Below are positions 27,815 to 36,195 of a DNA stretch of 64,000 bases, piece after piece; position 1 is the stretch's first letter, and every line of letters starts with the position of its first letter. Source of the stretch: Lysobacter arseniciresistens ZS79 (lineage in GTDB: Bacteria; Pseudomonadota; Gammaproteobacteria; Xanthomonadales; Xanthomonadaceae); contig NZ_AVPT01000005.1 in the NCBI RefSeq assembly GCF_000768335.1, forward strand, positions 1 through 64,000. The letters are read 5' to 3'. The position numbers and the translations under genes are program-made. The notes beneath the pieces were generated by a model. It saw only the letters and a list, made by a program, of their open reading frames with translations, was not told the DNA's origin and made no database searches.

Positions 27815-28356
27815 CCACGTCCACCATCCGTTTCACCGCCAGACTCCACCGCCCCGCCCGGCCGGAGAAGGGCGGCACGTGGAGCTTCCTGGTCCTGCCG
27901 AAGTCGGCCAGCGCGAGGCTGCCGACGCGCTCGATGACCAGCGTGGAGGGCACGCTCAACGACCAGCCCTTCGCCGCCACGCTGGAGCCGGACGGCAACG
28001 GCAGCCACTGGCTGAAGGTGAGCCGCGAGTTGCGCGGCAAGGCCGGCGCCGAGCCGGGCGACGAGGTCGCGCTGGCGATCCGCCCGGCCGCGGAGGAGCC
28101 CGAACCCGAGGTGCCGGCCGACGTGCGCAAGGCGCTGGCCGCCGCGCCGGCCGCGAAGGCGACGTGGGACGACATCACCCCGGTGGCGCGCCGCGACTGG
28201 GTTCACTGGGTCACTTCGGGCAAGCGCGAGGAGACCCGCGTACGCCGCATCGAGGTGGCCTGCGACAAGCTCGGCAAGGGCCAGCGCCGCGCCTGCTGTT
28301 TCGACCGCTCGGGGATGTACAGCAAGAGCCTGTCGGCGCCGGAAGCGGCCGACTAG
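27811..28356 (+). CDS. DUF1905/YdeI-OmdA family protein
   Basis: The 181-residue protein combines a DUF1905 beta-barrel domain (IRFTARLHRP…GGTWSFLVLPKSASARLP, about residues 1–90) with a YdeI/OmdA-type C-terminal helix region. The latter reads PADVRKALAAAPAAKATWDDITPVARRDWVHW and carries the typical TSGKREETRVRRIE segment. YdeI relatives are linked to resistance to cationic peptides, but mechanism is unknown. The gene is translationally coupled to the VOC gene and converges with the photolyase gene (4-bp overlap). Confidence 0.85.
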   Translation: MTTSTIRFTARLHRPARPEKGGTWSFLVLPKSASARLPTRSMTSVEGTLNDQPFAATLEPDGNGSHWLKVSRELRGKAGAEPGDEVALAIRPAAEEPEPEVPADVRKALAAAPAAKATWDDITPVARRDWVHWVTSGKREETRVRRIEVACDKLGKGQRRACCFDRSGMYSKSLSAPEAAD

Positions 28357-29762
28357 ATGGGTTTCAACCGCGCCAGCGCGTCCAGCGCGCCGCGCCGCCC
28401 CTCCGCGAGGTCCACCACCGGCTGCGGCGGGTAGCGGCCGATGTCGCCCAGCGCGCGCGGAACTTCCCAAGGCGCATGGCGCGCCGCCGCCGGCACGCCG
28501 CGCAGCTCCGGCACCCACTGCGCGATGTAGGCGCCGTCGGGGTCGAACCTGCGTGCCTGCAGCACCGGATTGAACACGCGGAAGTACGGCGCGGCATCGA
28601 CGCCGGTACCGGCCACCCACTGCCAGCCCAGCGTATTGTTGGCGAGGTCGGCATCCACCAGCCGGTCCCAGAACCAGCGCGCGCCGTGGTGCCAGTGCAC
28701 GCGCAGGTGCTTGGTCAGGTAGCTGGCGACCACCATCCGCACGCGGTTGTGGATCCAGCCGGTGGCCGTGAGCTGGCGCATGCCGGCATCGACGATCGGT
28801 ACGCCGGTGCGCCCGAACTTCCACGCGCGCAATGTGTCGGGGTCCGGCTCGGCCCAGTCGAAATCATCGAAGCGCGGGTTGAAGTTGGCGTCGGTGGTGT
28901 GGGGGAAGTGGTGCAGCACGTGGTGCGCGAACTCGCGCCAGCCCAGTTCGCGCACGTAGGCGAAGCGCTGGTCGGCCGGTTCGATCGACGCCAGCTCGGC
29001 GACCACGCGCCACGGTGCGATCTCGCCGAAATGCAGGTGCGGCGACAGCCCCGAGGTGAGCGGCTGGTCGGGGCGGTCGCGGCCATCGCGGTAGTCGTGC
29101 AGCGCACGCTGGGCAAACGTGCCGAGGGCGTCGGCGGCGCCCTGTTCGCCGGGCCTCCAGGCGTCCCAGAACCCGGTGTCCCAGCGCGGATCGGGTTGCA
29201 GGCCGAGATGGCCAAGCAGCGCCTCCCCGGGCAGCCGCTCGAACGCGGGAAGCGACGGCGGGGCCTCGTTCAGCGTGTGCCGCGGCCAGGCGGCCAGCGC
29301 GGCTTTCCAGAACGGGGTGAATACACGGAACGGGGCGTCGTTGCGCGTCGCCACCTGCCAGGGTTCGAACAGCAGGCTTCCGTTGTGGGCCTCGGCACGC
29401 AGGCCGCCGCGGTGCAGGGTGCGCCGGATCGCGGCGTCGCGCTCATCCACGCAAGGCTCGTGCCGGCGATGCCAGAAGACGGCGGCGGCGCCGGTGGCGG
29501 CGGCGATGGCCTGCAGCGTCTGGAGGCTGTCACCGGCGAACACGTGAAGACGCGAACCCCGCGACCGCAGGTCCGCGTCCAGCGCCGCCAGTGACCGGTG
29601 CCGCCATGCGTCCGATGCCGCGCCGGGCTTCCACGCCCCTTCTTCATGCGGGGCGTGGATGTAGACCGGCAGCGGTGCCATGCCGGACTTGAGCGCGGCC
29701 TGCAAGGCCGGGTGGTCTCGCAACCGCAGGTCGTTGCGGAACCAGACGATGGCAGGCGTCAC
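28353..29762 (-). CDS. phrB: Deoxyribodipyrimidine photolyase (cryptochrome/photolyase family)
   Basis: The 469-residue protein repairs cyclobutane pyrimidine dimers using blue light. The N-terminal alpha/beta antenna domain begins VTPAIVWFRNDLRLRDHPAL (GTG start), and the C-terminal FAD domain carries ANNTLGWQWVAGTGVDAAPY and the TGWIHNRVRMVVASYL helix. Length and key segments match class I CPD photolyases. Its proximity to the CarH-like regulator, through two other minus-strand genes, suggests light-dependent expression, but no operator is seen directly upstream. Confidence 0.95.
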   Translation of the reverse strand: MTPAIVWFRNDLRLRDHPALQAALKSGMAPLPVYIHAPHEEGAWKPGAASDAWRHRSLAALDADLRSRGSRLHVFAGDSLQTLQAIAAATGAAAVFWHRRHEPCVDERDAAIRRTLHRGGLRAEAHNGSLLFEPWQVATRNDAPFRVFTPFWKAALAAWPRHTLNEAPPSLPAFERLPGEALLGHLGLQPDPRWDTGFWDAWRPGEQGAADALGTFAQRALHDYRDGRDRPDQPLTSGLSPHLHFGEIAPWRVVAELASIEPADQRFAYVRELGWREFAHHVLHHFPHTTDANFNPRFDDFDWAEPDPDTLRAWKFGRTGVPIVDAGMRQLTATGWIHNRVRMVVASYLTKHLRVHWHHGARWFWDRLVDADLANNTLGWQWVAGTGVDAAPYFRVFNPVLQARRFDPDGAYIAQWVPELRGVPAAARHAPWEVPRALGDIGRYPPQPVVDLAEGRRGALDALARLKPI

Positions 29763-29792: not shown

Positions 29793-30020
29793 TCAGCGGC
29801 GGACTTCGGCACGCGACGGCGCGGCGGTACCGCCACTGAGCAGCGGGACGATCTGGTACAGCGCCGACAGGCCGGCCAGGATGTAGACGACGCGCGCCAG
29901 CAGGGCGTCCTGCCCGCCGAAGATCGCGGCGACGAGGTCGAACTGGGCGATGCCGACCAGCCCCCAGTTGATGCCGCCGACGATGACGAGCACGAGGGTG
30001 ATGACGTTGAGCGTTTTCAT
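29793..30020 (-). CDS. DUF378 small membrane protein
   Basis: The 75-residue protein has two hydrophobic helices and the DUF378 pattern MKTLNVITLVLVIVGGINWGL…IFGGQDALLARVVYILAGLSALY. Such proteins are of unknown function and often stress- or envelope-linked. GGAGACCCACC precedes the ATG. It lies between the photolyase and fasciclin genes on the same strand, 30 bp before the photolyase start, so it probably shares a transcript with the photolyase. Confidence 0.85.
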   Translation of the reverse strand: MKTLNVITLVLVIVGGINWGLVGIAQFDLVAAIFGGQDALLARVVYILAGLSALYQIVPLLSGGTAAPSRAEVRR

Positions 30021-30154: not shown

Positions 30155-30685
30155 TCAGCCGCCCGGCATCAGGACCTTGTCGATCACGTGGATGACGCCG
30201 TTGGTGGCCTTGACGTCGGCCATCACCACGTTGGCACCGTCGACCATCACCGCGCCGTCGGCGGCGACGATGTCCACCGCATCGCCGTTGACGGTGGTGG
30301 CCTCGTCCAGCCCGCCGACGCGGCTGGCGGGGTAGCGGCCGGGGACCACGTGGTAGGTCAGGATCGCGACCAGCTTGTCCTTGTTCGCGGGCTTGAGCAG
30401 CTCTTCGACGGTGCCGGCGGGCAGCGCCGCGAAGGCCTCGTCGGTCGGCGCGAACACGGTGAACGGACCGTTGCCCTTCAGCGTGTCGACCAGCCCGGCG
30501 GCGGTCAGCGCCGCGGCGAGGGTGTTGAACTGGCCGGCGGCAACGGCGGTGTCGACGATGTCGCCCTTGGCCTGGGCGGCCTTGGCATGGTCGCCCTCAT
30601 GGTGGCCGGCGTGGGCCAGCGGCACGGCGAGCCCGAGTGCCAGTGCGACGACGAGGGTGCGGAGGGATGCATTGCGGTGGTTCAT
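30155..30685 (-). CDS. Secreted fasciclin-domain protein
   Basis: The 176-residue protein has a signal peptide ([19 protein letters not shown]) and one fasciclin (FAS1) domain. The domain shows the H1 motif [20 protein letters not shown] and the H2-end [18 protein letters not shown]1 proteins are cell-surface or periplasmic adhesion-type proteins; in bacteria some respond to light or oxidative stress. The gene is transcribed divergently from the CarH-like regulator, and its promoter region holds the TTGTAC boxes. Confidence 0.92.
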
Positions 30686-30741: not shown

Positions 30742-30774
30742 TTGTACAAACTGTAGTTGTACGCTTGTTGTACA
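30742..30774. promoter_or_regulatory. Candidate CarH/LitR operator with three TTGTAC boxes
   Basis: TTGTAC occurs at 30742–30747 (as palindromic TTGTACAA), 30757–30762 and 30768–30773. The second and third are exactly 11 bp apart, the spacing of CarH direct repeats, whose core is nTnTACA in published sites. The first is 15 bp upstream of the second. The boxes lie 10–42 bp before the regulator start and inside the divergent intergenic region with the fasciclin gene, where they would block both promoters. Confidence 0.6.
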
Positions 30775-30783
30775 TTGCTTCGC

Positions 30784-31683
30784 ATGTTCCCCGTCAAGGC
30801 CGCCGCCGAACTGAGCGGGCTCACTCCCGAAACCCTGCGTGCGTGGGAGCGCCGCCATGCCGCGGTGGTGCCGCACCGCGACGGCAAGGGGCGCCGAATG
30901 TACGACGCCGCGATGATCGAGCGGCTGGCCCGGCTGCACCGGTTGACCGGCCGCGGCCATCCGATCCGCGACCTCGCAGGGCTCGACGACGCCGCGCTCG
31001 ACGACCTGCTGGAGGAAAGCCGCCAGACCGGCTACGGCGGCGTGGAGGAGCTGCCGGCACGGATGCTCGACGCCATCGCCGACTACCAGGTCGACGTGTT
31101 CGACCGCGACCTGTCGGTGGCGATCGCGACGCTGCCGGTGTCGGTACTGGTCGCGCGCGTGGTCGCCCCGCTGCTGCGCGAGGTCGGCGTGCGCTGGGCC
31201 GACGGACGGCTGGCGATCGCGCAGGAGCGGCTGGTCAGCAGCCTGCTGCGGGCCCGGCTGCTGTCGGTGCTGAACCAGCACCCGCGCGGGCACGAGCCGC
31301 GGGTGCTGTTCGCCACCCTACCCGGCGAGCCGCACGAGCTCGGGCTGCTCGGCGCGGCGCTGCACGCGCACGAGGCGGGGCTGCCGGTGCTGTACCTGGG
31401 CACCGGGCTGCCGTCGGCGGAGCTGGCGCGGGTCGCCACCCGGCTGGGCGCGGCCGCGGTGGCAATCAGCTCGGTCGACCCTGGCCAGGCGCGGGAGGCG
31501 CTGGCCGGGTTGCGCGAGCTCGACGGCCTGCTGCCGCCGGGGATGCCGGTCTGGGTCGGCGGTGCCAACGCGCGTTACCTGGCCGAGGCACTCGGGCTTG
31601 CCCGGGTCGCGGCGGTCACCGACCCGGGTGCGTTGGGTGCGCTCGGCCGTCGCCTGCAAAAAGCACGCACCTCGCGTAAATGA
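30784..31683 (+). CDS. MerR-family B12-dependent light regulator (CarH/LitR-like)
   Basis: The 299-residue protein has an N-terminal MerR helix (FPVKAAAELSGLTPETLRAW, then ERRHAAVVPHRDGKGRRMYD). A B12-binding-2 helical cap follows (about residues 90–165), then a cobalamin-binding Rossmann domain with E182-P-H184-E-L-G187 and WVGGANARY. CarH-type tetramers with adenosylcobalamin repress in the dark and fall apart in light. The capping motif Wx9EH here is W138…E148-R149, so the His is replaced by Arg, and no His follows the Trp. The ATG at 30784 has no Shine-Dalgarno; a leaderless mRNA is possible. A TTG at 30757 would bury the operator in the gene. Confidence 0.85.
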   Translation: MFPVKAAAELSGLTPETLRAWERRHAAVVPHRDGKGRRMYDAAMIERLARLHRLTGRGHPIRDLAGLDDAALDDLLEESRQTGYGGVEELPARMLDAIADYQVDVFDRDLSVAIATLPVSVLVARVVAPLLREVGVRWADGRLAIAQERLVSSLLRARLLSVLNQHPRGHEPRVLFATLPGEPHELGLLGAALHAHEAGLPVLYLGTGLPSAELARVATRLGAAAVAISSVDPGQAREALAGLRELDGLLPPGMPVWVGGANARYLAEALGLARVAAVTDPGALGALGRRLQKARTSRK

Positions 31684-31738
31684 CGCCGTCTTGCCGCCGC
31701 GCCCGCCACGCTGGCGGAAACCCCTACCTCCCAAGACC

Positions 31739-32242
31739 ATGCCCATGACAGCTCACGACCGCGCCCGTGCCTTCAAGGGCCTCATCGTCTGGCTGCTGGT
31801 GACATTCGTCGCCGCCGGCATCGGCAGTGCCGCCTCGATGCGGGCCGGCGACTTCTACCAGCAACTGGTACGGCCCGGCTGGGCGCCGCCGGCCGACGTG
31901 TTCGGTCCGGTCTGGACCGTGCTGTACGTGCTGATGGCGATCGCCGCGTGGCTGGTCTGGCGCCGCGCCGGCAGCTTTGCCGCGGCGCGCACGGCGTTGA
32001 CGCTGTACCTGGCGCAGCTGGTGGTCAACGCGCTGTGGAGCTGGCTGTTCTTCGGCTGGCACATGGGAGGCGCCGCGCTGGCCGACCTGGTGCTGATGTG
32101 GGTGCTGGTCGGCGCCACGGTGATGGCGTTCTGGCAGATCCGCCCGCTGGCCGGTGCGCTGCTGTTGCCCTACTGGGCGTGGGTGACGTTCGCCGGCGCG
32201 CTCAACTACGCGACCTGGCAGTTGAACCCGCAGCTTCTGTGA
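31739..32242 (+). CDS. tspO: TspO/MBR family tetrapyrrole-binding membrane protein
   Basis: The 167-residue protein has five transmembrane helices and the TspO signature QQLVRPGWAPPADVFGPVWT, plus VNALWSWLFFGWHMGGAAL and the C-terminal ALNYATWQLNP. TspO proteins bind porphyrins or other tetrapyrroles and in bacteria link light or oxygen to stress responses. It follows the CarH-like gene by 55 bp on the same strand, so light-regulated co-expression is plausible. The first in-frame ATG is chosen; another start two codons later is possible. Confidence 0.93.
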   Translation: MPMTAHDRARAFKGLIVWLLVTFVAAGIGSAASMRAGDFYQQLVRPGWAPPADVFGPVWTVLYVLMAIAAWLVWRRAGSFAAARTALTLYLAQLVVNALWSWLFFGWHMGGAALADLVLMWVLVGATVMAFWQIRPLAGALLLPYWAWVTFAGALNYATWQLNPQLL

Positions 32243-32320: not shown

Positions 32321-34255
32321 ATGCGCCGACGCATCGGGGCGGCGATGTGCGCGCTGCTGGCGGCTTTCCTGGCCCTGCCCGGCCAGGCCCACGAGAACGT
32401 GCCGGGCCAGCCGCCGGTGCACCCGGAGATCACCCCGGCCCAAGCCGCGTTCGACAAGCTGTTCTGGGACATCGACGACGGCGCCTTCCCGCTCGACTCC
32501 TACGCACAAACCTACGCCGTGCTGGCCAGGCTCGAGCAGGCGATCCCGCCGGGTGACGTGCACCGGCAACTGCAGTACCGCTATATGCACTGCCTGGTGG
32601 GCTTCAACCACGGCACCACCGGCGCGGTGGACTACGCCCGTGAAAGTGCCGAGGCGGCCCGCGCGGCCGGGGACGAGGCCTCCGAAGCCGCGCTGCGGGC
32701 CTGCCTGGGCATCCACCTCTCCAACAACGGCGATGCCGCGTCCGCGGCCGTGCAGTACGAACAGGCGGCGCAACTGGCCCGCCGTGGCCGCGACTTCAAC
32801 GTCGAGGGGGTCGCGCTGGTGCGGCGCGGCAACCTGCGGATGGACGCCGGCGACATCGCCGCTGGCCTGCAGGACCTACTGGATGCGCAGCAGGTGTTCG
32901 AGCGCGGCCAGGTCGCCTTCCAGGTCGATTTCAACCTGTTCGCGATCGCCCAGGCCTACCGCCGTCTGGGCGAGCTCGACCGCGCGCTGGAGTACATCAA
33001 CCGGGTGGTCGAGTTTGGCCAGGCACGCAGCGACGAGCTGGTGCTGGCTTCTGCATTGAACGAACGCGGCCGCATCCGCATGGCACGCGGCGAGTTCGAC
33101 CAGGCCGAGGCCGACCTGCGCCAGGCGCTGGTGTACGCCACCAACGAAGGTCGCCCGGCCAGCATCGGCTACATACGGCTGCAACTGGCCGAGCTGCAGA
33201 ACCGGCGCGGGCGTCCGCGCGACGCGCTGGACGAGTTGCAGGCCGCGCTCGTCGCCTACCGGCAGACCGGTGGCCCGCCGCCGCAGGACCTGCTCGATCT
33301 GCAGACCGGCATCGCCCGTTCCCGCCTCGGCCAGCACCGGTTGGCGCTGCAGTCACTCGGCCGCGCGCTGCCGGCGCTGCACGACGCCGGCGACCTGGCC
33401 AGCGTGATGGAGGCGCACCTGTGGCGCGCCGACAGCCGCGAAGCGCTGGGCGACGCCACCGGTGCGCTGGCCGACCTGCGCGCGTTCGCCCGGCTGCGCC
33501 GGGAGTCGGCCGGACGGGCGACCCACCAGCGCGTGCTCGCCATGAGCGAGGGGTTCGACGCGCGCTACACCGAGTTGCGCAACACCCGCCTGCGGGAGCA
33601 GCAGGCACGCGCCGAGCGACTGGCCGCGGCCGAACGACAGCGCAAACCCTGGCGGATCGCCTCGATCGCCCTGGGCGCGATGCTGGCGCTGGTGCTCGCA
33701 TGGCTGGCGCTGCGGCAGGCGCGTCGACTGCTGCGGCTGCGGGGCATGGTCTCGACCGACCCGCTGACCGGCGCGATCAACCGTCGCGAGGTGCAGTACC
33801 GGGTGGCCAAGCATCTCGCCGGTGGCGATGCGCAGCTGTGCGTCGTGCTGATCGACCTGGACCACTTCAAGCAGGTCAACGACCGCCACGGGCACGCCGC
33901 GGGGGACCAGGTGCTGGTGCGCGCGGTGGCGGCATGGCACGGCGTGCTGCGGGCCGGCGAGCGGCTGGCGCGGCTGGGTGGCGAGGAGTTCGTCGCGGTG
34001 CTGCCGGGGGCCGGGATCGACGCGGGCGCACAGGTGGCCCGGCGGTTGCTGGAGGCCACCCGCGCGATCGACCTGGGGGATGTCGCGCCGGGGCTCTCGA
34101 TCACCGCCAGCTTCGGCGTGGCCGCCGCGTTGCCGGGCGAGCGCACGCTGGAGGAAATCCTCGGCCGCGCCGATGCGGCGCTGTACCGGGCCAAGACCGC
34201 AGGCCGCGACCGCATCGAGATCGCCGATGGGCCCGCGCCGGAGGCCTCGCAGTGA
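32321..34255 (+). CDS. TPR-containing diguanylate cyclase 1 (periplasmic sensor)
   Basis: The 644-residue protein has a signal peptide (MCALLAAFLALPGQA) and an extracytoplasmic TPR-rich sensor part (about residues 30–420). One transmembrane helix follows (IALGAMLALVLAWLALRQA, about residues 448–465) and then a cytoplasmic GGDEF domain. The active-site signature is GGEEF at residues 553–557, so it should make c-di-GMP. The inhibitory I-site (RxxD) five residues before it reads R-A-G-E, so product inhibition may be lost. It overlaps a paralogue in a GTGA arrangement. Confidence 0.93.
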   Translation: MRRRIGAAMCALLAAFLALPGQAHENVPGQPPVHPEITPAQAAFDKLFWDIDDGAFPLDSYAQTYAVLARLEQAIPPGDVHRQLQYRYMHCLVGFNHGTTGAVDYARESAEAARAAGDEASEAALRACLGIHLSNNGDAASAAVQYEQAAQLARRGRDFNVEGVALVRRGNLRMDAGDIAAGLQDLLDAQQVFERGQVAFQVDFNLFAIAQAYRRLGELDRALEYINRVVEFGQARSDELVLASALNERGRIRMARGEFDQAEADLRQALVYATNEGRPASIGYIRLQLAELQNRRGRPRDALDELQAALVAYRQTGGPPPQDLLDLQTGIARSRLGQHRLALQSLGRALPALHDAGDLASVMEAHLWRADSREALGDATGALADLRAFARLRRESAGRATHQRVLAMSEGFDARYTELRNTRLREQQARAERLAAAERQRKPWRIASIALGAMLALVLAWLALRQARRLLRLRGMVSTDPLTGAINRREVQYRVAKHLAGGDAQLCVVLIDLDHFKQVNDRHGHAAGDQVLVRAVAAWHGVLRAGERLARLGGEEFVAVLPGAGIDAGAQVARRLLEATRAIDLGDVAPGLSITASFGVAAALPGERTLEEILGRADAALYRAKTAGRDRIEIADGPAPEASQ

Positions 34256-36195
34256 CGCCGCGGTTCCGCCTGCTGGCCGCGCTGCTGGCCGCCGCGTCGA
34301 TGGCGGCGACGGCGACGGCGAGTGTCGCGCCCGTCGCGTCGACAGCCCGGCCGCTCCTTCCTTCGCACGGCGACGCGGCGCAACCCGACGCCGACGCCTT
34401 CGACGCACTGGCCACCCGTCTCGAACGGGGCGCGTTGACGGCCGCCGCCCCCGAGCAGGCCCGCGACCAGCTGGCCCGGCTGCGGCGCCTGCTGCCGCCC
34501 GGCGACCCGCGGCGCGACCTGCGCTACCGCTACCTCGCCTGCGGAGCCGCTCCGGGCGATGCCGAGGCCACGATCGCGCTGGCGACCCGCGGGATCGCCG
34601 ATGCGCGTGCGCTGGAGGACGCCCACGCCCAGGTGCGGTTCCTCTACTGCCGGGCCGATGCCCGCGCGAGCGTGGCGCCACCCGACCAGACCCTGGGGGA
34701 CTGGGAGGCCGGCCTCGCCATGTCCCGTGCCAACCGCGACTGGCGGCTGGTGGCGGACGGACTGGTCGGCCGCGGCTACATGCGCTCGCTGGACGGCGAG
34801 CACGCCCGCGCGCTCAACGACTTCCTCACCGCGCAGCAGCTGTACCGCACCACCGGCCACGATGCGCTCGCCCGCGAGAACGCGCTCAACCTGGGCATCG
34901 CCTATCGCCGCATGGGTGATCTGGAGGAGGCCCGCACCCACGTTCAACAGGCGCTGGACGAGGCCACCCGGGGCGACGACTGGGGCACCCGCTTCAACGC
35001 GCTGCTGCAGCTGGGCTACCTGTACGAGGACCTCGGCCAGCTGTCACGCGCGCAGCAATCCTACGAACAGGCCCTCAACCTGGCCCCCCGCGAGCAGGCA
35101 CGCGCCCAGGCCGGTGCCGCACGGCTGGCATTGGCCGGGGTGCTGATTGCCCGCGGCCACCATGCAACGGCGCTGGAAGCGCTCGACCAGGCCGAGCGCG
35201 AACTGGCGGGGACCTCCGACACCGGTCGCTCCGGCCTGCTGCGGATGCGCCGCGGCCTGGCGCTGGCGGGCCTGGGCCGCAACGACGATGCCCTGCGCGA
35301 GTACGAAGCGGCCGAGCGCCTGATCCGGCAACAGGACAACGAGCGCTACCTGGCGATGCTGCTGCCGGCCCGCGCCGAAGCACTGGAGGCGTCCGGCCAG
35401 CCGGACCGCGCACTGGCCGAGTACCGCCGGTTCGTCCAGCTGGAGGGCACGTTGCTGGACGGGAGCGCGCGCCAGCGCGCCACGGCGATGCGCCACCGGT
35501 TCGACGCCCGCCGCCGCGAACTCGACACCCAGCGGCTGCTGGCCGACACCGAACTGCAGCGGCAGGAGCTCGATGCGCTGGTGCGGGCACGCCGCTGGCA
35601 ATGGCTCGCGCTGACGCTCGGCGCCGTGCTGGTACTGGTGCTGGCGGCGCGGTTGCTGCGGCAGCAGCTGCGGACCCGACGCCTGCGCTCGCTGGCGTCG
35701 ACCGACGCGCTGACCGGCGTCGCCAACCGCCGCGCGATCGACCACGCCGGCAATACGCTGTTCGCCGCCGCGCGTGACGGCGACACCGCGATGAGCGTGC
35801 TGATGTTGGACATCGACCGTTTCAAGCAGGTCAACGACGTGCACGGCCACCTCGCCGGCGACGAGGTGCTGCGCCGCGTCGTCGCCGCCTGCCAGGGCGC
35901 GCTGCGCAATTCCGACCGGCTGGGGCGTTTTGGCGGCGAGGAGTTCGTCGCGGTGCTGCCGGGCACGGAGGCGGCCCCGGCCGCGCAGGTCGCCGAGCGC
36001 TTGCGCCTGGCGGTCCAGGCGATCGACCTGGACGACGTCGCCCCCGGGCTGCGGGCCACGGCCAGCGTCGGCCTGGCCACGCTGCGGGCCGATGATGGCG
36101 GTTTCAACGCGCTGGTCGAGCGCGCCGACCGGGCGCTGTACCGGGCCAAGGCCGGCGGTCGCAACCGGGTGGAGCGCGACAACCCGCCGGGCTGA
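34252..36195 (+). CDS. TPR-containing diguanylate cyclase 2 (periplasmic sensor)
   Basis: The 647-residue paralogue of the preceding gene starts with GTG, overlapping its stop. It has a signal peptide (LLAALLAAASMAATATA), TPR-like helices (LGIAYRRMGDLEEARTHVQQ, LGYLYEDLGQLSRAQQSYEQ), one membrane helix (LALTLGAVLVLVLAARLL) and a GGDEF domain. The active site is GGEEF at residues 561–565. Here the I-site reads R-N-S-D and is intact, so this cyclase can be product-inhibited. The two genes arose by duplication and are co-transcribed. Confidence 0.93.
   Translation: MTPRFRLLAALLAAASMAATATASVAPVASTARPLLPSHGDAAQPDADAFDALATRLERGALTAAAPEQARDQLARLRRLLPPGDPRRDLRYRYLACGAAPGDAEATIALATRGIADARALEDAHAQVRFLYCRADARASVAPPDQTLGDWEAGLAMSRANRDWRLVADGLVGRGYMRSLDGEHARALNDFLTAQQLYRTTGHDALARENALNLGIAYRRMGDLEEARTHVQQALDEATRGDDWGTRFNALLQLGYLYEDLGQLSRAQQSYEQALNLAPREQARAQAGAARLALAGVLIARGHHATALEALDQAERELAGTSDTGRSGLLRMRRGLALAGLGRNDDALREYEAAERLIRQQDNERYLAMLLPARAEALEASGQPDRALAEYRRFVQLEGTLLDGSARQRATAMRHRFDARRRELDTQRLLADTELQRQELDALVRARRWQWLALTLGAVLVLVLAARLLRQQLRTRRLRSLASTDALTGVANRRAIDHAGNTLFAAARDGDTAMSVLMLDIDRFKQVNDVHGHLAGDEVLRRVVAACQGALRNSDRLGRFGGEEFVAVLPGTEAAPAAQVAERLRLAVQAIDLDDVAPGLRATASVGLATLRADDGGFNALVERADRALYRAKAGGRNRVERDNPPG

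Follow-up and report, generated by a model that had tools for sequence, protein, structure and literature searches.

The window analysed here is a stretch of 64,000 nucleotides from Lysobacter arseniciresistens ZS79 (contig NZ_AVPT01000005.1, positions 1 to 64,000). It harbours a gene for a MerR-type regulator with a cobalamin-binding domain, a divergent fasciclin gene and, behind the latter, genes for a small DUF378-like protein and a DNA photolyase. The features of the locus are as follows.

28353..29762, minus strand: DNA photolyase, behind the fasciclin gene and on the same strand (Pfam DNA_photolyase, 3.2e-47; FAD_binding_7, 4.7e-81)
29793..30020, minus strand: small DUF378-like protein (55% over 49 aa to a DUF378-annotated place in locus L116)
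30155..30685, minus strand: fasciclin-domain protein, divergent from the regulator, probable target (Pfam Fasciclin, 5.5e-40)
30742..30778, no strand: candidate operator, TTGTACAA followed by two 11-bp tandem repeats, TTGTACGCTTG-TTGTACATTGC (sequence)
30784..31683, plus strand: MerR-type regulator with cobalamin-binding domain (CarH/LitR-like), 299 aa (translation, Pfam, phmmer)
31195..31200, plus strand: W138 (31195-31197) and A139 (31198-31200) of the cap (sequence)
31225..31230, plus strand: E148 (31225-31227) and R149 (31228-31230), which are E-H in CarH proteins (sequence)
31324..31344, plus strand: lower-ligand motif GEPHELG, G181-G187, with H184 (31333-31335), His in all 33 ortholog loci

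The ORF list opens the regulator gene at a TTG codon at 30757. Since this codon lies within the operator-like repeats, and ortholog matches open at residue 1 of the protein encoded from ATG 30784 (except in L032, at residue 57), the ATG was taken as the start. Pfam analysis of the 299-residue protein detected MerR_1 (3.3e-14), the type of DNA-binding domain expected of CarH (class I LitR), as well as B12-binding (6.3e-08) and B12-binding_2 (8.7e-08). Together with the phmmer matches to Thermus CarH chains (~8e-25), these hits indicate that the resemblance to CarH reflects homology rather than chance. The phmmer alignment pairs Thermus W131, H132, E141, H142 and H177 with W138, A139, E148, R149 and H184 of the regulator. 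Translation and scripted residue numbering confirmed W138, A139, E148, R149 and the intact G-E-P-H-E-L-G as given in the initial annotation, whose description of the protein as CarH-like, with a changed cap, is borne out by the Pfam and phmmer matches and by the fixation of E-R in the clade. The regulator scored 116.5 bits with the NCBIfam model NF052513 (TransRegCarH), under the 400-bit cut-off. As none of 398 genomes of the phylum and none of 14 control genomes passed it either, this cut-off is narrow. The gene is single-copy in the 3.09-Mb genome. A TspO/MBR gene follows on the same strand (31733-32242), and such a gene is found near the regulator in 2 of 23 relatives (L068 and L069). Two adjoining long TPR-GGDEF-like ORFs are present at 32321-36195, the first of which was the one subjected to Pfam analysis.

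The residues expected to hold cobalamin from below are in place. The B12 motif of CarH is described as D/ExHx2G/P-x41-SxT/V-x22-27-GG (PMC9304148), and by our count the regulator has all of it, as E182-x-H184-x2-G187, S229-x-V231 and G259-G260 with spacers of 41 and 27. Among 12 diverse members, G135, W138, E148, H184, G206, P210, S229, G259 and G260 are invariant. The SignatureFinder signature of light-responsive CBDs is composed of GxxW, EH, GxxH and GxxxP (PMC11796333); the regulator harbours three of these four elements (G135-W138, G181-H184 and G206-P210), the EH being ER. All of the 50 Foldseek matches listed, out of 91 (E ≤ 0.001), are CarH/LitR proteins by title or series, with a best E-value of 6.3e-14 and full-length TM-scores of only about 0.5. 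The AlphaFold model built from 5 rows has a mean pLDDT of 74.4, with residues 136-143 under 50. Because its cap loop is unreliable, neither the geometry of R149 nor side chains are argued from the model.

Relatives were collected from several genome sets. Own genome included, matches were found in 54 of 398 genomes of the phylum, 25 of 250 of the order and 76 of 360 of the class. In a second class, 7 of 78 genomes matched. The best 30 places from the phylum, 27 new loci from the order, and 30 loci plus 39 further stretches from the class were taken as alignment rows; shorter or weaker places were left out, so that the sample favours intact proteins. A contig search with the regulator protein yielded 4 relatives and a plasmid search 1 record, and a plasmid search with another query gave 120 records, 3 of which were used. 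Of 173 aligned rows, 149 were kept after removal of 6 duplicates and of 18 rows that were unaligned in the cap or mostly gaps. Nearly all of those kept are from Pseudomonadota, and the rarity of E-R reported below applies to that phylum.

Counting the window's own, we identified 33 ortholog loci, 31 of them distinct, and all have W-x9-E-R and the lower His. The other 32, or 30 once two duplicates are removed, share 58-84% identity with the regulator, and those with names belong to Luteimonas, Pseudoxanthomonas and Stenotrophomonas. Luteimonas arsenica shares the same protein region with a genome from the family of the window (L010 and L006), and on the strength of these names and this match the window was placed in Lysobacteraceae. 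The distribution of the gene is patchy: own genome included, 32 of 395 genomes of the family sample matched at 1e-8, among them two fragments of 40-47 aa and the distant L034, which has no Trp, and 5 of 60 genomes of the nearest relatives matched. Short stretches at G117:C1:3339006-3339137 and G213:C4:33497-33616 match the C-terminus of the protein with 65-66% identity and are possibly remnants of a lost copy. The most distant clade members, L031 and L033 (58-59% identity), have a stop codon within the matched stretch. A branch supported at 100/99 separates the 31 E-R rows from all others in a tree built from 84 rows. L170, from another family of the class (G992), also has W..ER. Its placement is not resolved in a tree of 101 rows, and it joins the clade with an SH-aLRT value of 78 after removal of six long-branch rows; a single origin of E-R in L170 and the clade is neither shown nor rejected. 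The neighbours of L170 gave no match to the fasciclin, photolyase, DUF378-like or TspO proteins of the window, and no exact repeat pair was found there.

Among the 116 rows with both Trp and the lower His, residues 148-149 are EH in 82, ER in 32, GH in one and QV in one. This count is not circular, whereas His in 82 of 82 against Arg in 31 of 31 is true by definition, the groups being named after residue 149. The 32 ER rows are the 31 of the regulator's clade plus L170, and residue 149 is His or Arg in 115 of the 116 rows. The exception, the QV row L118, is misaligned, and another alignment shows it without the lower His. With Arg in all 33 ortholog loci, a one-off mutation or a sequencing error was rejected. 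In the 31 distinct orthologs, Arg149 is encoded by CGG (15), CGC (11), CGA (4) or CGT (1), and Glu148 by GAG (21) or GAA (10). As the codons drift synonymously while the Arg stays, position 149 probably matters. R149 is a conserved, clade-specific replacement of the second cap histidine, and D/E140, R/K142, L143 and Q147 nearby are also fixed in the clade. Other departures from the cap motif were seen in the sample. The GH protein, L101 (G876), has W-x9-G-H without the cap Glu and is encoded next to a divergent fasciclin gene. In another lineage, Cys replaces the cap Trp in L182 and L183, with EH and the lower His present, and L187 and L188 have Cys for Trp and ER, without the lower His.

These counts make it unlikely, in our view, that Arg149 is a neutral, tolerated replacement in a protein with the standard behaviour of CarH, namely an AdoCbl-bound oligomer in the dark that disassembles in the light: the near-exclusive choice of His or Arg at residue 149 and the retention of Arg despite codon drift both speak against neutrality. 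It would nevertheless be consistent with a published assignment of the adenosyl contacts to Trp131 and Glu141 (PMC10442372), with the frequent absence of His132 from EH relatives detailed below, and with the retention of the repeats and of the fasciclin gene in the clade.

The position after the Trp proved less telling. The cap Trp is present in all 33 ortholog loci and is followed by Ala in 29 of the 31 distinct ones (L170 not counted). The regulator has A139 where Thermus CarH has His132, the residue of its bis-His light state, and the initial annotation had singled out this difference. The Ala is indeed there, but it is not unusual: in the 82 relatives of the sample that combine W..EH with the lower His, the residue after the Trp is Ala in 20, Glu in 16, Ser and Arg in 7 each, Asp, Gln and Lys in 5 each, His in 4, Asn and Leu in 3 each, Val, Met and Thr in 2 each and Ile in 1. 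Ala139 was rejected as a distinctive feature on this basis, 78 of the 82 EH proteins having no His after the Trp. A 2016 paper by Takano and others reportedly refers in its title to a semi-conserved His in LitR. In our sample, then, His132 is usually missing, whereas a missing E-H histidine marks one lineage.

We found no His within residues 95-160 in 29 of the 31 clade members, the other two having one each, at places 102 and 132, and 35 of the 82 EH rows carry the E-H histidine as their only one in that interval; these counts use the alignment columns present in the regulator, and His in insertions of other proteins is uncounted. An alternative conserved cap His was rejected, the nearest candidate, H166, being in the linker and His in 19 of 31. 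With so few His in the cap, no obvious cap ligand would be available for a bis-His light state like that of Thermus CarH. A homology model once proposed both H132 and H142 as light-state ligand (PMC4557120), crystals showed that H132 takes this role (PMC10442372), and H142 is listed among the key AdoCbl residues (PMC11796333). The equivalents of both of these upper-face His are missing together in the regulator's clade. The changed cap might shift the choice of chromophore or the light chemistry, an idea that this joint loss sharpens.

The shift of chromophore put forward in the initial annotation could be a retuning of the cap to MeCbl or OHCbl, in the manner of AerR. Rhodobacter AerR is a relative (7te2, 3.1e-08) whose B12 domain also has a Trp cap, and its LAerR form is reported to bind hydroxocobalamin whereas SAerR is unselective (PMC9144470). 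However, we consider retuning improbable given that E148, an adenosyl contact in CarH, is invariant and that the genome encodes two types of adenosyltransferases. AerR is also described as a co-regulator of CrtJ, with an upper His contributed by the N-terminus in LAerR and none in SAerR (PMC9144470). Across 56 chosen genomes of the family, the PduO-type adenosyltransferase was found in all 56 and the BtuR type in 7, with both in the own genome; the PduO type thus does not separate carriers of the regulator from non-carriers.

The altered cap might alternatively reflect a loss of B12 dependence, with repression by the apoprotein or through another partner. Myxococcus CarA and the Pseudomonas class II LitR proteins are likewise related to CarH and have a modified sensor domain. 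CarA is reported to be B12-independent with its B12 motif retained (PMC9304148), and retention of the motif is therefore no proof of B12 dependence. The cap motif of the regulator deviates from the CarH definition, and E-R is also found in relatives without the lower His (4 of 149 rows, L172, L187, L188 and L189, have it with neither the Trp nor the lower His). Nevertheless, Trp, Glu and the lower His are all retained in the regulator, as are S and GG of the B12 motif, which makes such a loss quite unlikely. CarA differs in having lost the Trp and retained EH (PMC9304148). Class II proteins are described as having only the four-helix bundle left of the B12 domains (PMC9758184), whereas in the regulator the B12 Rossmann domain is present (Pfam B12-binding, 6.3e-08, and the motif). 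Of the 18 sampled relatives that we ourselves labelled class II-like, none retains E-H or the lower His and 13 retain the Trp, unlike the regulator.

The intergenic region harbours repeats reminiscent of a CarH operator, a feature described in print as an 11-bp repeat, nnnnTnnACAn (PMC9304148). TTGTAC occurs twice with 11-bp spacing after TTGTACAA, giving tandem repeats with TnnACA that resemble the operator at the level of sequence; the first of the two ends in ACG rather than ACA, and the second stops 5 bases short of ATG 30784. The pattern TGTAC-N6-TGTAC is matched exactly at 30757-30773. It is also exact at the carH promoter of 22 of 23 loci, and exact repeats are found in 29 of the 31 clade loci. 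As a control, other spacings gave 0-5 exact matches in the same 23 loci, except for 15 bp (27 matches), which by eye corresponds to a third conserved site. Within the own genome the pattern has 3 matches against 1 for a reversed control pattern, those other than the carH promoter being in an ORF on contig C12 and near a contig end; given these numbers, we claim no wider regulon. In L079, a second exact pair lies downstream of carH, about 1811 bases from its start, and is perhaps a further target promoter. We saw no RBS by eye before ATG 30784 (30757-30784), and the distance between repeat and ATG is similar in most orthologs. Together with the closeness of the repeat to the ATG, this suggests a leaderless carH transcript.

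The fasciclin gene is divergent from the regulator gene in 23 of 23 loci and in 30 of 31 clade loci, and a photolyase gene follows it in 6 of the 23 loci besides the window. Of the 62 EH rows for which flanking DNA was available, 6 have exact repeats upstream, 3 (L117, L136 and L140) a divergent fasciclin gene and 12 a photolyase gene, and L140 has all three. The GH protein L101 has a divergent fasciclin gene as well. The circuit of repeats, fasciclin and photolyase is therefore also found with ordinary EH sensors, in a minority of cases.

Thermus thermophilus CarH (class I LitR/CarH) has in common with the regulator the MerR HTH, the four-helix cap and B12 Rossmann domain, the W-x9-E motif, the lower His, GxxxP and a photolyase gene nearby. 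The two proteins are 30% identical and differ in that the regulator has E-R for E-H, Ala for His132 and a cap almost free of His, and is encoded next to a fasciclin gene rather than a phytoene synthase gene. Wx9EH is called absolutely conserved in the CarH homologs studied and, together with the B12 motif, defines CarH (PMC8156234). With W-x9-E-R in the regulator and in all 33 ortholog loci, the protein is not a CarH by that test; it may nevertheless work like one, and is best viewed as a probable variant, specific to its clade, of the CarH/LitR photoreceptor family. We found no printed account of a W-x9-E-R CarH in the literature searched, a weak negative since most subscription journals were outside it. 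The B12 photoreceptors CtMerR, SasPcob and AbDPcob likewise lack His at position 132, where they have Arg, Gln and Tyr, respectively (PMC11796333). CtMerR is the nearest printed parallel: its anaerobic light structure is described as having no bis-His ligation, with a Glu that turns to the cobalt through water, but it retains EH where the regulator has ER (PMC11796333).

From these comparisons we infer AdoCbl binding, repression, a light response and the nature of the light state. We lean, with moderate confidence, towards a CarH/LitR-type repressor that depends on AdoCbl, controls light-protection genes and does without a second His in its light state. In the dark, AdoCbl would be bound base-off, with H184 below the cobalt and the adenosyl group covered from above by W138 and E148. 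The repressor would assemble on the tandem 11-bp repeats between its own gene and the divergent fasciclin gene, shutting down both its own gene and the fasciclin(-DUF378-photolyase) genes. Light would break the Co-C bond and release repression. Because neither of the two proposed upper-face positions is a His and the cap has almost no other, the light state would be an aquo- or hydroxo-cobalamin held by H184 rather than a bis-His form, and E148 may steady it through water, as in CtMerR.

A bolder version, which we put forward only tentatively, is that the clade is a lineage of photoreceptors with a histidine-free cap that signal without the second cobalt His. Arg149, with the acidic residue 140 and the basic residue 142, and Glu148 would couple Co-C cleavage to DNA release, possibly reversibly or with another choice of cobalamin. 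Thermus H132A was mostly tetrameric in the light in one study, while an earlier report found disassembly (PMC10442372). The former result implies that a cap devoid of His might respond poorly. The light spectrum of H132A is of the hydroxo type, near 352 nm; that of a bis-His state lies near 359 nm.

The role of the second His in CarH light signalling is thus disputed in print, with the H132A reports in conflict (PMC10442372). Since the clade lacks both upper-face His by nature, the question becomes testable in native proteins, and optogenetics might gain from it a CarH-type switch with an unlocked photoproduct. Motif filters that require EH would miss W-x9-E-R proteins. With Arg in place of the cap His throughout, this lineage may respond to light with chemistry of a somewhat different kind.
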